DNA from: Burkholderiaceae bacterium
GTDB lineage: Bacteria; Pseudomonadota; Gammaproteobacteria; Burkholderiales; Burkholderiaceae_D
NCBI GenBank assembly: GCA_023653025.1
Contig: JAMNXS010000026.1
Coordinates: 1 to 35,978 of the forward strand
Direction: 5' to 3'
DNA length: 35,978 bases
The notes under the pieces were generated by a model. The model saw nothing but the letters and a program-made list of their open reading frames with translations. It made no database searches and was not told where the DNA came from. Shown here piece after piece: positions 2,268-30,584 of the stretch; position 1 is the stretch's first letter; each line of letters opens with the position of its first letter. The position numbers and the translations under genes were made by a program.

Positions 2268-3134
2268 ATGATGCAGCCGCAGATCAAGATGGTGCAGTGC
2301 CTGTCGCCCGCCGGGCTGCACGAGGTGGTCTACCGGGAGTGGGGCGACCCGGCCAATCCCGAGGTGCTGGTCTGCGTCCACGGCGTCACGCGGGTGGCGG
2401 ACGATTTCGACGCGCTGGCCGCCGCCATGGCCGACCGCTACCGCGTGATCTGCCCGGACGTGGTCGGCCGCGGCCGCTCGTCGTGGCTGAAAGACCCGAA
2501 GTTCTATGTCGTGCCGCAGTACGTGTCCGACATGGTCACGCTGATCGCCCGGCTTGACGTGCCGCAGGTGGACTGGTTCGGTACGTCGATGGGCGCGCTG
2601 ATCGGCATGGGGCTGGCTGCACAGCAAGGCAGCCCGATTCGCCGAATGGTGATGAACGATGTCGGCCCGACGCTGAATTTCGAGGCGCTGGCGCGCATCG
2701 GCGACTACATCGGACAGGACTTGCGCTTCGACAGCTTCGCGCAGGGGCGCGACTACATCCGCACGATCTCCGCGCCGTTCGGCCCGCACACCGACGACGA
2801 ATGGGACAAGCTGGCGCGCGACGTACTGCGGCAGGGCGCGGACGGCCAGTGGCGGCGGCATTACGATCCGGCGCTGGCCTTGCCCTTCAAGGCGCTGACC
2901 GTCGAGAACGCGAAGCAGGGCGAGGCCGCAATGTGGGCGGCTTATGACGCGATCCGCTGCCCGGTGCTGCTGGTGCGCGGCAGCGAATCGGACCTGCTGA
3001 CGCGCGAGACGGCCCGGCAAATGACCGAACGCGGGCCGCGGGCGACGTTGGTCGAGCTGGCAGGCATCGGCCATGCGCCGACCTTCATGCATGCCGACCA
3101 GATCGCGCTGGCGCGCCGCTTCTTTCTGGATTGA
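2268..3134 (+). CDS. Alpha/beta hydrolase
   Basis: 288 residues with an alpha/beta hydrolase fold: VCVHGVTR (oxyanion region), nucleophile elbow GTSMGALIG with the Ser, a late acid region and the catalytic His in GIGHAPTF. The family covers esterases, haloalkane dehalogenases and lactonases; the substrate here cannot be named. An upstream in-frame ATG at 2232 has no ribosome site and lies in TAAAAT (2228-2233), a likely -10 box. ATG 2268 has GGAG about ten bases upstream and is preferred; ATG 2271 is also possible. Its stop overlaps the earliest possible start of relA, so the two are probably cotranscribed. Confidence 0.85.
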   Translation: MMQPQIKMVQCLSPAGLHEVVYREWGDPANPEVLVCVHGVTRVADDFDALAAAMADRYRVICPDVVGRGRSSWLKDPKFYVVPQYVSDMVTLIARLDVPQVDWFGTSMGALIGMGLAAQQGSPIRRMVMNDVGPTLNFEALARIGDYIGQDLRFDSFAQGRDYIRTISAPFGPHTDDEWDKLARDVLRQGADGQWRRHYDPALALPFKALTVENAKQGEAAMWAAYDAIRCPVLLVRGSESDLLTRETARQMTERGPRATLVELAGIGHAPTFMHADQIALARRFFLD

Positions 3135-3136
3135 TC

Positions 3137-5377
3137 ATGGTGTTCGTGGCCACCCGCGACGGGGATGATTCGCTGACCGTCGGGCTGCGCGCCGACGACG
3201 CCTCAAGGCTGATGGAGGCGGTCGCCTTCGCCAGCGGCCCCTACGCCGGCAAGCAGGTGCCGACCGGCCAGGATGCGATGGCTTTTTCGCGCGGCGTGGT
3301 GGCGGCACTGGCGTCGCTGAAGTCCGACATCGACACCCGCATCGCCGGCTTGCTGTTCGAGCTGACCGCCATCGCGCCGGAGGCCGCCGCGCAGATCGAG
3401 CCGCGCTTCGGCAAGGAGGTGGCCGAGATGGTCGCCGGCATCCGGCAGCTGATGCGCCTGCACGAGGGCACGATGCCGCCCCCGGAGCAGGGCAAGGCGA
3501 GGAGCGCGGCCGCCGGCCAGTTCGAGACGCTGCGCAAGATGACGCTGGCCATGGCCACCGACATGCGGGTAGTGCTGGTGCGCCTCACGTCTCGGCTGAC
3601 CACGCTGCGCTACTTCGCCGAGAGCAAACTGGAAAACGAGATGACGCTGCGCTACGCGCGCGAAACCTTCGACCTCTACGCGCCGCTGGCCAACCGGCTC
3701 GGCATCTGGCAGCTGAAATGGGAGTTGGAGGATTTGTCTTTCCGCTTCTCCGAGCCGGCCAGCTACAAGCGCATCGCGAAGATGCTCGAGGAGAAGCGCG
3801 TCGAGCGCGAACAGTTCGTCGAGGCGTCGATCGTTCGGCTGAAGTCAGAGCTGGCGGCGGCCGGGATCAGGGCCGAGGTGTATGGACGGCCGAAGCATAT
3901 TTTCAGCATCTGGAACAAGATGCGTGGCAAGGCCATCGATTTCTCGCGGCTGCACGACGTGCGCGCATTCCGCGTCATCGTTGATGACGTCAAGGCCTGC
4001 TATGCGGTGCTCTCGATCGTGCACAACATCTGGACGCCGATCCCGGAAGAGTTCGACGATTACATCGCCCGTCCCAAGTCCAACGGCTATCAGTCGCTGC
4101 ACACGGTGGTGGAGGCCGACGACGGCCGCACGCTCGAAGTCCAGATCCGCACCCAGGAGATGCACCGCTTCGCCGAGTATGGCGTGGCTGCGCACTGGCG
4201 CTACAAGGAAGGCGCAGCCAACGCGCTGGACGAGTCCTACGACCAGAAGATTGCATGGCTGCGCCAGCTGCTGGCCTGGAAATCCGAAGTGGCCGGCGGC
4301 GTCGTCGGCCAGGAGGACAGCGAGCGGCAGTGGGTCGAGCAGCTGAAGGCAGCGGCCATCAACGACCGCATTTACGTGCTGACGCCGCAGGGCCGGCTGA
4401 TCGAGCTGCCGGCCGGCGCCACGCCGATCGATTTCGCTTACCACCTGCACAGCGACATCGGCCATCGCTGCCGCGGCGCGAAGGTGAATGGCGCGATGGC
4501 GCCGCTCAACACGCGGCTGCAGAACGGGCAGACGATAGAGATTGTCACCGCCAAGGGGGAGGCCGCAGCGGCCGGCACTGCCGGGCCTTCGCGCGACTGG
4601 CTGGCCGATGGCTACACCGCCAGCCCGCGCACCCGCGCGAAAATCCGCGCGTGGTTCAACGCGATCGAGCAGGCGGAAATCCTTGCACACGGCCGCGTGC
4701 TGCTGGAAAAGACCCTGCAGCGCGAGGGCAAGACGGCGGTCAACCTCGACGACCTTGCGCAGAAGCTTGGCTTTGCGAAGCTGGACGACTTGCTGCTGGC
4801 CGTCGGCAATGATCGGCTGAGCCTGCGCCTGGTCGAGCAGGCACTGCACGCGGACGAGCCGGGCCGGCAGGCCGCGCCGGACGACGCCGTGCTGCCGCGC
4901 CAGAGCCGCGCATCGAGCGTGACGCGCGGCGCGAAGGCAGGGGTGCTGGTGCTGGGCACCGAGGGTTTGCTGACGCAGATGGCCAGCTGTTGCAAGCCGG
5001 CGCCGCCGGATCCCATCGTCGGCTTCATCACGCGCGGCAAGGGCATATCGATCCACCGCGCCAGCTGCAAGAACCTGTCGCAGATGCTGTTGCGCGCGCC
5101 CGAGCGCATGGTGCAGACGACCTGGGGCGAACTCGGCGGCGACACCGTGTATCCGGTCGACGTGTTCGTCCTTGCGCAGGACCGGCAGGGTCTGCTGCGC
5201 GATATCTCCGACATCTTCCTGCGGGAGAAGATCAACGTGATCGGCGTCTCGACCCGCAGCAGCAAGGGTCAGGCTTTCATGTCCTTCACCGGCGAAATCT
5301 CGTCGACCGCGCAGCTTCAAAAGGCGATGAAGGTCATCGGCGAGGTGAAGGGGGTGGTGGAGGTGAAGCGGACGTAA
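3137..5377 (+). CDS. relA: GTP pyrophosphokinase RelA, synthetase-only type
   Basis: 746 residues with full RelA/SpoT layout: degenerate HD domain (about 1-180), ppGpp synthetase (about 220-370), TGS (about 411-473), a CCKPAPPDP zinc/RIS segment near 617 and a C-terminal ACT domain (about 674-746). Where active hydrolases have a His-Asp pair in a leucine-rich context, this protein has LLFELTA (about residue 71), so hydrolysis is probably lost. The synthetase has EFDDYIARPKSNGYQSLHT near 305. That is the acidic ExDD version seen in monofunctional RelA, not the RxKD of bifunctional Rel/SpoT. It should make (p)ppGpp from GTP/GDP and ATP on ribosomes with uncharged tRNA. ATG 3137 follows the hydrolase stop by two bases; a TTG at 3131 is less likely. 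Confidence 0.95.
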   Translation: MVFVATRDGDDSLTVGLRADDASRLMEAVAFASGPYAGKQVPTGQDAMAFSRGVVAALASLKSDIDTRIAGLLFELTAIAPEAAAQIEPRFGKEVAEMVAGIRQLMRLHEGTMPPPEQGKARSAAAGQFETLRKMTLAMATDMRVVLVRLTSRLTTLRYFAESKLENEMTLRYARETFDLYAPLANRLGIWQLKWELEDLSFRFSEPASYKRIAKMLEEKRVEREQFVEASIVRLKSELAAAGIRAEVYGRPKHIFSIWNKMRGKAIDFSRLHDVRAFRVIVDDVKACYAVLSIVHNIWTPIPEEFDDYIARPKSNGYQSLHTVVEADDGRTLEVQIRTQEMHRFAEYGVAAHWRYKEGAANALDESYDQKIAWLRQLLAWKSEVAGGVVGQEDSERQWVEQLKAAAINDRIYVLTPQGRLIELPAGATPIDFAYHLHSDIGHRCRGAKVNGAMAPLNTRLQNGQTIEIVTAKGEAAAAGTAGPSRDWLADGYTASPRTRAKIRAWFNAIEQAEILAHGRVLLEKTLQREGKTAVNLDDLAQKLGFAKLDDLLLAVGNDRLSLRLVEQALHADEPGRQAAPDDAVLPRQSRASSVTRGAKAGVLVLGTEGLLTQMASCCKPAPPDPIVGFITRGKGISIHRASCKNLSQMLLRAPERMVQTTWGELGGDTVYPVDVFVLAQDRQGLLRDISDIFLREKINVIGVSTRSSKGQAFMSFTGEISSTAQLQKAMKVIGEVKGVVEVKRT

Positions 5378-5493: not shown

Positions 5494-5529
5494 ATGGCGC
5501 TGTTTTCAATGCCTTTCAGGAGGCCTGCC

Positions 5530-5841
5530 ATGGAATCTGTCCTTGCACGACGCTCGGTGAGCATCACCGAGCTCAAGCGCAGCCCGAGCGCCGTGATCGA
5601 TGAGGCGGGGTCGGAGACGGTAGCCGTGTTGAACCACAATCGCCCTGCTGCCTATCTGGTCCCCGCTGCCGTGTATGAGTCCATGCTGGTACAACTCGAT
5701 GCCGGTCTGAATGCCGACATCCAGCAGGGCATGCACAGTGGCGCAGGCCTGCCTGCGGAGGAGGTCTTCGCCGAACTGGAGCTTCGCTATGCAGAGACGC
5801 CTGTGGCCGCCAGTCGGGGAGCCAAGCGCGGCAAGGCATGA
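5530..5841 (+). CDS. Phd/YefM-family antitoxin
   Basis: 103 residues. The N-terminal half (SVSITELKRSPSAVIDEA, then AVLNHNRPAAYLVPAAVYE) is the standard Phd/YefM dimerisation and DNA-binding fold. The C-terminal half should wrap the toxin and ends in a basic tail (SRGAKRGKA), somewhat longer than usual. AGGAGG lies six bases before ATG 5530; an upstream in-frame ATG at 5494 directly abuts the -10 box and is not the start. Its TGA overlaps the toxin ATG (ATGA), the translational coupling typical of such pairs. It should neutralise the toxin and repress the operon. Confidence 0.9.
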   Translation: MESVLARRSVSITELKRSPSAVIDEAGSETVAVLNHNRPAAYLVPAAVYESMLVQLDAGLNADIQQGMHSGAGLPAEEVFAELELRYAETPVAASRGAKRGKA

Positions 5842-14614: not shown

Positions 14615-14989
14615 ATGAACGATCGCGCTGCCAAGCCGGTGCTGGCATCCTTGCCGCCGATTCCCGCCAAGCGCTACTTCACGATCGGTGAGGTCAGCGA
14701 GTTGTGCGGCGTGAAGCCGCATGTGCTGCGCTACTGGGAGCAGGAATTCGCCCAGCTGAAACCGGTCAAGCGTCGCGGCAATCGCCGTTATTACCAGCAT
14801 CACGAAGTCCTGCTGATCCGCCGCATCCGCGAATTGCTGTACGAGCAGGGCTTCACGATCAGTGGTGCCCGCAACAAGCTCGACAACCAGCCCGTGACCG
14901 AGATCGACGCCGAGGCAACCGATCCGGCACTGGACCCGCTTGCCATTCGCGACGAGCTGCAAGCGATTCTCGGCCTGCTGAAGGCCTGA
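14615..14989 (+). CDS. MerR-family transcriptional regulator
   Basis: 124 residues: AKRYFTIGEVSELCGVKPHVLRYWEQEF is a MerR winged-helix start, and KRRGNRRYYQHHEVLLIRRI the wing and linker helix. There is no metal- or drug-binding C-terminal domain beyond a short dimerisation helix, and only one Cys. This stand-alone MerR protein is conserved directly after ihfA in betaproteobacteria. Its targets are not known to me. It is the last gene of the cluster. The hairpin downstream carries its T run on the other strand, so no plus-strand terminator is evident. Confidence 0.92.
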   Translation: MNDRAAKPVLASLPPIPAKRYFTIGEVSELCGVKPHVLRYWEQEFAQLKPVKRRGNRRYYQHHEVLLIRRIRELLYEQGFTISGARNKLDNQPVTEIDAEATDPALDPLAIRDELQAILGLLKA

Positions 14990-15034
14990 ACCTGCTCACG
15001 CGGCCCGCAGCCTCGCGCGCCATCCTTCGCAAGC

Positions 15035-15063
15035 AAAAAAAAGCCCGCTCCGAGGAGCGGGCT
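15035..15063 (-). terminator. Strong minus-strand intrinsic terminator
   Basis: Perfect 9-bp GC-rich stem (15042-15050 with 15055-15063), 4-base loop, then eight T on the minus strand. The plus-strand side has no T run. Because no minus-strand ORF lies upstream of it for over a kilobase, it implies a non-coding transcript. Confidence 0.85.
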
Positions 15064-15127
15064 GAATCTATATCTGAGGAGAAGACATAGAGGAGACAAA
15101 GCATAGTATGCTGCTCTGCGGTATATA
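15035..15127 (-). ncRNA. Candidate small regulatory RNA with two anti-Shine-Dalgarno segments
   Basis: Predicted transcript of about 93 nt from near 15127 to the end of the T run. It has a promoter (15134-15163), a short 5' hairpin AGCAT-ACT-ATGCT, then an unpaired CU-rich stretch containing GUCUCCUCU and UCUUCUCCUCA, each carrying CUCCUC, the complement of a ribosome binding site. It closes with a strong terminator and eight U. This is the usual build of an Hfq-dependent small RNA that blocks translation starts. There is no ORF. Targets are unknown; TCA cycle mRNAs are a testable guess because Neisseria sibling small RNAs with CU-rich loops control such genes. The 5' end is approximate. Confidence 0.6.
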
Positions 15128-15133
15128 AGGCAA

Positions 15134-15163
15134 ATTTTAAATTCCTATGGTAGTCATAATCAA
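15134..15163 (-). promoter_or_regulatory. Promoter of the candidate small RNA
   Basis: On the minus strand TTGATT (15163-15158), 18-base spacer, TAAAAT (15139-15134). A second weaker set (TTGCCT, 17 bases, CATACT) begins just downstream and would give a shorter transcript. Confidence 0.55.
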
Positions 15164-15232
15164 AGTCTATACCTTGGTCGATGATGGCCAATGATCGGTG
15201 GGGCAGGCGCTTGCTGCCTGAATGACAATTCA

Positions 15233-15288
15233 TTCGATTTTCAACATCATTCTTTGTGTCGCAGCAATATTGGTTGACGAAAATCGAA
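15233..15288. promoter_or_regulatory. Perfect 10-bp inverted repeat at the bactofilin promoter
   Basis: TTCGATTTTC (15233-15242) and GAAAATCGAA (15279-15288), centres 46 bp apart, the right arm overlapping the -35 edge and spacer of the promoter. It could be a pair of operator half-sites or a loop-forming operator; the regulator is unknown. Confidence 0.45.
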
Positions 15289-30391: not shown

Positions 30392-30553
30392 GTCAAACAG
30401 GAAACTTAAGCGACGTTTTGTGCTGGGCCGTTGTGTTACTCTTGGCCTGGCGCAAACGCGCGCATGATTCGGATCAAGCCCTTCCCGCAACTTGATTTGC
30501 AATCCGCTAACCGGCGAGGCCGGGTCGCGGAAGGTTGATAAACCCGCTATTTG

Positions 30554-30570
30554 CTTCGCGAAACGCGAAG
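30554..30570 (+). other. Hairpin just before the odhA ribosome site
   Basis: Perfect 7-bp stem CTTCGCG/CGCGAAG with AAA loop, directly followed by AAAGGTGAGC and the odhA ATG. Could set mRNA stability or access to the ribosome site. The rest of the 235-base gap shows no clear promoter to me. Confidence 0.5.
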
Positions 30571-30584
30571 AAAGGTGAGCAGCG

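Follow-up and report, generated by a model that had tools for sequence, protein, structure and literature searches.

A small-RNA gene lies on the minus strand of the 35,978-nucleotide stretch of DNA analysed here (the window), and it is a further member of an already known sRNA family. A cmscan search against Rfam matched RF02278 (Betaproteobacteria toxic sRNA) at 15035-15098 over the full length of the model (positions 1-64 of 64) with 68.4 bits, the gathering score being 50. This over-threshold match bears out the original prediction of a minus-strand sRNA gene, for which an Rfam search had been proposed. Read from 15098 to 15035, the minus-strand sequence of the element is UGUCUCCUCUAUGUCUUCUCCUCAGAUAUAGAUUCAGCCCGCUCCUCGGAGCGGGCUUUUUUUU. 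We hold it to be very probable that the gene specifies a stand-alone, trans-acting RNA of about 64 nt with its own promoter and terminator and two anti-Shine-Dalgarno (anti-SD) sites, which would act most likely by Hfq-assisted blocking of ribosome-binding sites. The core of the original prediction therefore holds; the promoter and 5' hairpin that it named lack conservation, and the TCA-cycle role that it proposed is unsupported. Taken alone, the window element is an ordinary, good member of its family, and the part worth following is the broader family described below.

Fold, conservation and copies of the element

The 64-nt element folds into two hairpins (-28.2 kcal/mol, z -6.0, with 0/200 shuffles as good), the second of which is the expected strong intrinsic terminator with eight U. 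Its stem at 15063-15042 has 9 pairs, 7 of them G-C, and a loop of 4; the first T of the run at 15042-15035 is paired. CTCCTC occurs twice on the minus strand, at 15095-15090 and 15081-15076. Both copies had been placed in one unpaired stretch, but only the first CUCC site is at the 5' end of the RNA, whereas the second sits in the loop of hairpin 1. These are the two places where CU-rich anti-SD sites are expected in RF02278, and the window element has both (Table 1). The earlier statement that no minus-strand ORF precedes the terminator needs correction in that two mechanical ORFs cross the element (14859-15233 and 14800-15099); neither has a Pfam match.

Table 1. Features of the sRNA locus (positions in the window)
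Feature	Position	Strand	Support
sRNA, RF02278 family, mature form about 64 nt, 5' UGUCUCC to U run	15035-15098	-	cmscan 68.4 bits; model R2 32.5 bits, E 5.9e-6
Anti-SD site 1, UGUCUCCUC, 5' end; last two bases paired in hairpin 1 (predicted fold)	15090-15098	-	Element positions 2-12 invariant in 16/16; fold
Hairpin 1, loop UCUCCUC (15082-15076) = anti-SD site 2	15067-15091	-	Fold
Terminator stem-loop	15042-15063	-	Fold; stem changes on both sides in 6/7 pairs, wider family
Terminator T run, 8 T, possible Hfq-binding tail	15035-15042	-	Sequence; Hfq role inferred
Probable -10 box CATACT (CATAAT in 11/16 orthologues)	15105-15110	-	4/6 or better in 16/16 orthologues
Probable -35 box TTGCCT, 17-bp spacer to CATACT	15128-15133	-	Begins TT, 3/6 or better in 13/16 orthologues
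Conserved upstream block ATAG-N7-TTAT-N7-ATAG-N7-AAAT, OxyR/LysR-like tetrad, putative activator site	15134-15170	-	13/16 consensus bases; TAT-N7-AT core in 16/16 orthologues

The neighbours on the plus strand are what we take to be pheS, pheT, an HU/IHF-type gene, merR and two bactofilin genes. A comparison of the merR/bactofilin intergenic locus across relatives had been suggested, and it shows the sRNA beside the orthologue of the adjacent bactofilin gene, bac1, in all 15 of the 21 genus genomes that have a close one (at least 89%). A sixteenth genus copy (L021) comes from a genome without a close bac1 orthologue. Positions 2-12 of the element are invariant in all 16 copies, and 97.9% of their stem cells are paired. 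We also attempted to use covariation inside the genus as support. It turned out to be no greater than in shuffled alignments (39/500 reach the score) because the stems hardly vary within the genus, and it was set aside.

Intrinsic terminators are common, and one could imagine a mere terminator for minus-strand read-through joined to a chance CU-rich sequence, with no sRNA at all. The RF02278 score, the syntenic conservation, the invariant CUCC sites and the published expression of relatives all argue against such an accident, to which we give hardly any credence. Together with the target repression reported for relatives, the family match and the synteny support a trans-acting sRNA with two anti-SD sites.

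Several weaker Rfam matches of the window were considered and rejected. The anti-hemB family (RF02837) is likewise a short CUCC-rich RNA with a terminator, but the window scores 27.2 bits, below the gathering score of 49.5, and the 5' helices of anti-hemB are largely absent from the match. This match, as well as those to ylbH, suhB/mmgR and other sub-threshold families, was read as terminator or CU-rich background.

The window's own genome (2.89 Mb in 126 contigs) has two further RF02278 matches of 49.8 and 32.8 bits, and four more (E 0.185-0.579) that look like background. All 21 genus genomes contain one to three matches, and the family was matched in 44 of 56 relatives overall and, among 399 sampled genomes of the order, in 244. 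At low scores RF02278 is not clean, as 11 of 14 control genomes match at E <= 1 and one at 0.01, although none does at 0.001 or 0.0001 and none ever exceeds the cut-off. A 22-base core pattern was found in 28 records labelled Oxalicibacterium, Herminiimonas, Glaciimonas, Paucimonas, Noviherbaspirillum, Lacisediminimonas, Oxalobacteraceae, Burkholderiaceae or Burkholderiales, and in 10 of them the pattern occurs twice, the two copies being 206-221 bp apart. Relatives also have RF02278-type sRNAs in local arrays or tandem pairs (G024:C113:125971-141581; G021:C1:4820824-4822497; L155, L157-L159, L165, L168, L171, L177, L178 and L182). Up to 12 matches (E <= 0.001) occur per relative genome, and the arrays recall the NmsRA/NmsRB tandem of Neisseria.

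Promoter, 5' end and upstream block

The promoter originally predicted, TTGATT-18-TAAAAT, is present at 15163-15134 of the minus strand and scores 9/12 in the window. Its -10 box is found in 11/16 orthologues, but its -35 box reaches 4/6 in only 1/16. In the window the small 5' hairpin predicted along with it folds stably (-9.9 kcal/mol, z about -3, 1/200 shuffles as good), but at least 7 of its 8 pairs are retained in a single orthologue out of 16, which is the window itself. We therefore rejected both as conserved features. The hairpin also overlaps a different -10 box at 15110-15105, 29 bp downstream of the predicted one, which is kept in all 16 orthologues (Table 1). Since this box is universal in the set, the RNA is probably about 64 nt long with a 5' end UGUCUCC, and the conserved boxes place +1 near 15098, where RF02278 starts. 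The sRNA thus appears, as judged from conservation, to have its own sigma-70-type promoter and intrinsic terminator.

The predicted 93-nt form with the 5' hairpin is unconserved in the genus, though longer precursors are known for some relatives. Burkholderia ncS27 is described as 92 nt long with a processing site (PMC5688073), and S17S of Bordetella pertussis, a short form of 67 nt, is reported to arise from S17L in a manner consistent with RNase E cleavage (PMC11722255). As the hairpin is stable in the window, beating all but one of 200 shuffles, a longer precursor cut at UGUCUCC in the same way is possible. In that case a primary transcript of about 93 nt would start from the 15163-15134 promoter, which does score 9/12, carry the 5' hairpin and be processed to the short form, and the mature RNA would be unchanged. 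However, the conservation of the -35 box of this promoter and of the hairpin in one orthologue each and the position of the conserved +1 near UGUCUCC speak against this route, and we regard it as unlikely, if still worth bearing in mind. A mature RNA of about 64 nt made directly from the conserved promoter is our preferred reading.

The conserved block upstream of the -35 box resembles the binding tetrad of OxyR, whose consensus is ATAG-N7-CTAT-N7-ATAG-N7-CTAT. Under a Markov model of the intergenic region, the chance of at least 13/16 matches to this consensus is 0.00015, a post hoc figure. The orthologues score 8-13 of 16 at their best place, which is in register in 13/16 of them. Their mean in-register score of 11.06 is reached by 0/20,000 letter permutations, with the register chosen by eye and the 16 sequences being related. 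Sites of 13/16 are not enriched in the window's genome, where there are 3 compared with 2 in the control.

One of the two other 13/16 sites lies upstream of what we take to be an ahpC-like gene. AhpC matches were found in 13 of the 21 genus genomes, and among the 12 loci tried, all 8 readable ahpC promoters score 12-13 of 16; L187 and L195 were dropped for want of a start, L191 and L196 for a wrong one, and the partial matches L198 and L199 were left out. Copies of the sRNA outside the genus (Herminiimonas, Oxalicibacterium and others) have a different upstream block that scores 8-11. We treat the OxyR-like tetrad, a post hoc idea, as a putative site and a lead only. Within 90 bp upstream of the copies in L155-L182 (Herminiimonas, Oxalicibacterium and similar), many share a block ATATTC..GAATATCnGATATC..GAAATTGG before TATACT, which perhaps corresponds to the shared upstream motif that PMC5688073 mentions for Burkholderia.

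Published relatives and candidate targets

The "toxic" in the family name goes back to growth inhibition on expression in E. coli, published for relatives of the window sRNA. The paper behind the name is Kimelman 2012, referred to here by way of later papers that cite it.

RF02278 is the family of Burkholderia ncS27 and other ncS RNAs, of which ncS03, ncS05, ncS27 and ncS62 are described as homologous double-hairpin RNAs; growth is attenuated when ncS27 is overexpressed, and the reverse complement of the CU-rich region of ncS27 has the opposite effect (PMC5688073). According to a review, ncS27 regulates metabolic shutdown (PMC10987360). Four RF02278 sRNAs, Hsnc059, Hsnc063, Hsnc086 and Hsnc107, are reported for Herbaspirillum seropedicae (PMC7011215). 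These RNAs of B. cenocepacia and H. seropedicae share with the window two CUCC sites, a double hairpin with a terminator and several copies per genome. Unlike them, the window copy lies between merR and a bactofilin gene, a position seen only in its own genus among the loci compared, and it has a UCUAUGUC stem variant and its own conserved upstream block.

S17 of B. pertussis, which its authors relate to RF02278, is Hfq-dependent, and S17S directly represses BP2158 (PMC11722255). S17 and S17S resemble the window element in the placing of their sites, the CU-rich site 1 being 5'-terminal and site 2 lying in a loop. The difference is one of origin: a precursor of about 190 nt, located next to coq7, is processed to S17S, whereas the window copy appears to be preceded immediately by a promoter. 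S17S was not similarly toxic in E. coli (PMC11722255), and hence toxicity is not general in the family.

To judge from sequence and conservation, the window sRNA would be transcribed from its own sigma-70-type promoter, end at the intrinsic terminator and expose two C/U-rich anti-SD sites, the first 5'-terminal and the second in the hairpin 1 loop. How it acts we take from the published relatives: with Hfq, for which the U-tail may serve as a binding site, it would most likely pair to several mRNAs of transport and catabolism at their ribosome-binding sites. Blocked translation would then slow metabolism and growth when nutrients change.

The TCA-cycle role had been suggested from the Neisseria sibling sRNAs. 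We calculated pairing energies at gene starts in all genomes with the window's site letters, not with each genome's own. In the window they were -4.1/-5.9 kcal/mol for gltA and -5.3/-5.6 kcal/mol for odhA, and the genus means (-5.7/-7.7 and -5.8/-6.5 kcal/mol) were only slightly better than those of ihfA (-4.5/-4.7 kcal/mol) and merR (-3.8/-5.3 kcal/mol). The genus means of mdh (-8.8/-8.4 kcal/mol) and sdhC (-8.2/-11.2 kcal/mol), which carry GGAGA sites of ordinary energy, were better than both, and one sdhC orthologue reached -19.3 kcal/mol with site 2. However, the single rplT start gave -9.1/-9.4 kcal/mol, and the strongest site-1 mean, -11.4 kcal/mol, was that of bac1. The comparison thus lends the role no specific support, and TCA-specific targeting was rejected because gltA and odhA pair weakly with the site letters used throughout. 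Although the Neisseria NmsRs target TCA genes (PMC5362039) and look homologous to the window sRNA, we find it improbable that the latter has the specific task of repressing sdh, gltA, odhA and mdh of the window.

A search of the window's genome for GAGGAGA-N2..11-ATG gave 65 rows compared with 2 in the control; one of the 65 is the sRNA gene seen from the opposite strand, and the excess is partly ordinary SD preference. From the 29 loci fetched out of the 65 rows we took the 25 ORFs of at least 60 aa as candidate targets. The longest pairing, 13 nt with site 1, precedes a zinc alcohol dehydrogenase gene, followed by 11 nt with site 2 before a presumed glutathione-S-transferase-like gene and 11 nt with site 1 before a presumed molybdopterin oxidase-like gene, both named from our own reading of the proteins. 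Conservation of the 13-nt target was dropped as support, the gene having a match in only 1/21 genus genomes, the window's own. SD-like complementarity is common and weakly specific. In kind, the candidates seem closer to the transport and catabolism targets that are known from relatives than to TCA control.

A SucA RNA motif (RF01070, 86.8 bits), a candidate riboswitch, lies at 30497-30581 (+) directly before odhA (30585).

A proposed wider family in Beta- and Gammaproteobacteria

In Neisseria, NmsRA represses TCA genes through two alpha-SDs, and mutation of either abolished the regulation of all targets but GltA (PMC5362039). The NmsRs are part of the RelA-regulated stringent response, and transformation of nmsRB into E. 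coli failed (PMC5362039), which is reminiscent of the toxic family. The Neisseria sibling sRNAs are stated to bind Hfq (PMC9973317), and the authors of the Burkholderia work remarked on the structural similarity of the B. cenocepacia ncS RNAs to NmsRs (PMC5688073). NmsRA and NmsRB (RF02877; RcoF1, NgncR_162/163) share with the window a TCTCCTCTAT core, a single-stranded anti-SD 1, a loop anti-SD 2 and a terminator. They differ in having a 5' stem-loop and in their locus, which in N. meningitidis MC58 has dsbB on one side and lrp on the other (PMC5362039).

RF02877 (NmsRb) matched 55 of the 399 order genomes, 29 of them over the cut-off. When these 29 and three more genomes were searched with RF02278, all 32 gave a match, and in 29/29 over-threshold genomes it was at the same place as the best NmsRb match, with 30.0-48.5 bits. 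In the opposite direction, RF02278 loci in other families (for example, those in G039, G301 and G081) give sub-threshold matches to RF02877. Against the full RF02877 model the window reaches 27.6 bits, short of the required 52, and is by score no member of NmsRb; nor does it show the conserved 5' stem-loop SL1, since its 5' hairpin is kept in 1/16 orthologues. A model built from the 16 window-genus sequences alone (R1; its E-values are rough) found 29 of 30 NmsRb loci at E <= 0.001. These profile searches in both directions suggest that the window family and Neisseria NmsR are homologous. In the open-access literature read here we met no claim of such homology, and the Rfam table gives no clan for either family.

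Among 274 genomes sampled from the class, RF02278 matched 64 at E <= 1e-4, 3 in the window's order and 61 in other orders. All 61 matches were below threshold, and 0/14 control genomes matched. Of the loci in these 61 genomes we read 20, namely the 11 with the best E-values and 9 from lower in the ranking; synteny was no criterion of choice. Their core is typically CTCCTCCATCCTCCTTTGGTGG followed by a terminator, with variants. Rfam at its thresholds lists tRNAs and a glycine riboswitch at these loci but no sRNA family. A model of 19 of them alone (R2; L250, a near-duplicate of L249, was left out of alignment A2) matched the window at exactly 15035-15098, the next match in the window having 17.0 bits and E 0.094, and it found 16 of the 17 NmsRb loci given. 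R1 was weaker on the gammaproteobacterial loci (10/20 at E <= 0.001, 16/20 at 0.01, L260 not listed). Hence RF02278, NmsR and the gammaproteobacterial RNAs detect one another by profile at the same places.

The genes rplM and rpsI adjoin 18 of the 20 gammaproteobacterial loci; osmC alone was recognised at one, and L256 has no recognised neighbour. Adjacency to rplM/rpsI was seen at 6/29, 16/28 and 17/30 of the betaproteobacterial loci fetched and at none of the 30, 30 and 29 control loci fetched otherwise, all of the window's genus. In all 18 gammaproteobacterial cases the RNA is upstream of rplM and co-directional with it. The same holds for 38 of the 39 loci with rplM in our hand-made table of 47 order loci, the gene at the remaining one not being downstream of the RNA. 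A literature search for an rplM-linked sRNA gave nothing on the subject by title.

Covariation was then scored on alignment A3, 27 hand-picked members of the wider family. The score was 0.365, compared with 0.178 for the shuffles (0/500) and at most 0.155 for slid versions. On three of five measures the alignment scores above each of the 500 shuffles and all slid controls, though relatedness and our choice of the terminator register inflate these three; the other two are unremarkable (pairs changed on both sides, 38/500; pair types, 448/500). Column pair 10-30 of hairpin 1 is UA in 13 members, CG in 12 and unpaired in 2.

Two of these results, the NmsR co-location and the gammaproteobacterial matches, go beyond the published RF02278 family. 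They suggest that the metabolic-switch RNAs of Neisseria and the unlisted gammaproteobacterial RNAs belong to one old family with RF02278. Against this, the rplM position is absent at NmsRb loci (0/30) and at the copies in the window's own genome (0/3), the scores are not high, and convergence could also produce a double hairpin that is short and CU-rich. If the wider family is true, Neisseria NmsR, with its TCA control, stringent response and anti-SD mutants, can be read together with ncS27 and S17 as one family, and a clan of RF02278 and RF02877 with a further gammaproteobacterial family is suggested. It also raises the question of why an anti-SD RNA precedes a ribosomal-protein operon in two large groups.

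A fuller scenario, which we offer as a long shot, makes RF02278 one branch of an old sRNA family of Beta- and Gammaproteobacteria. Its ancestral copy would have lain directly upstream of the rplM-rpsI operon and co-directional with it, where it may have begun as an attenuator, and the NmsRs would be relocated members. The copy of the window's genus would have moved under a LysR-type activator, perhaps OxyR, and become a peroxide-responsive translational brake with a logic like that of OxyS.

With regard to the RelA link of the NmsRs, the window also has a RelA/SpoT-type gene at 3131-5377 (+), and a Phd/YefM-type antitoxin gene lies at 5494-5841 (+). At one gammaproteobacterial locus, where rplM was not found, a tandem glycine riboswitch (L259:1206-1389, minus strand) lies directly downstream of the sRNA copy.
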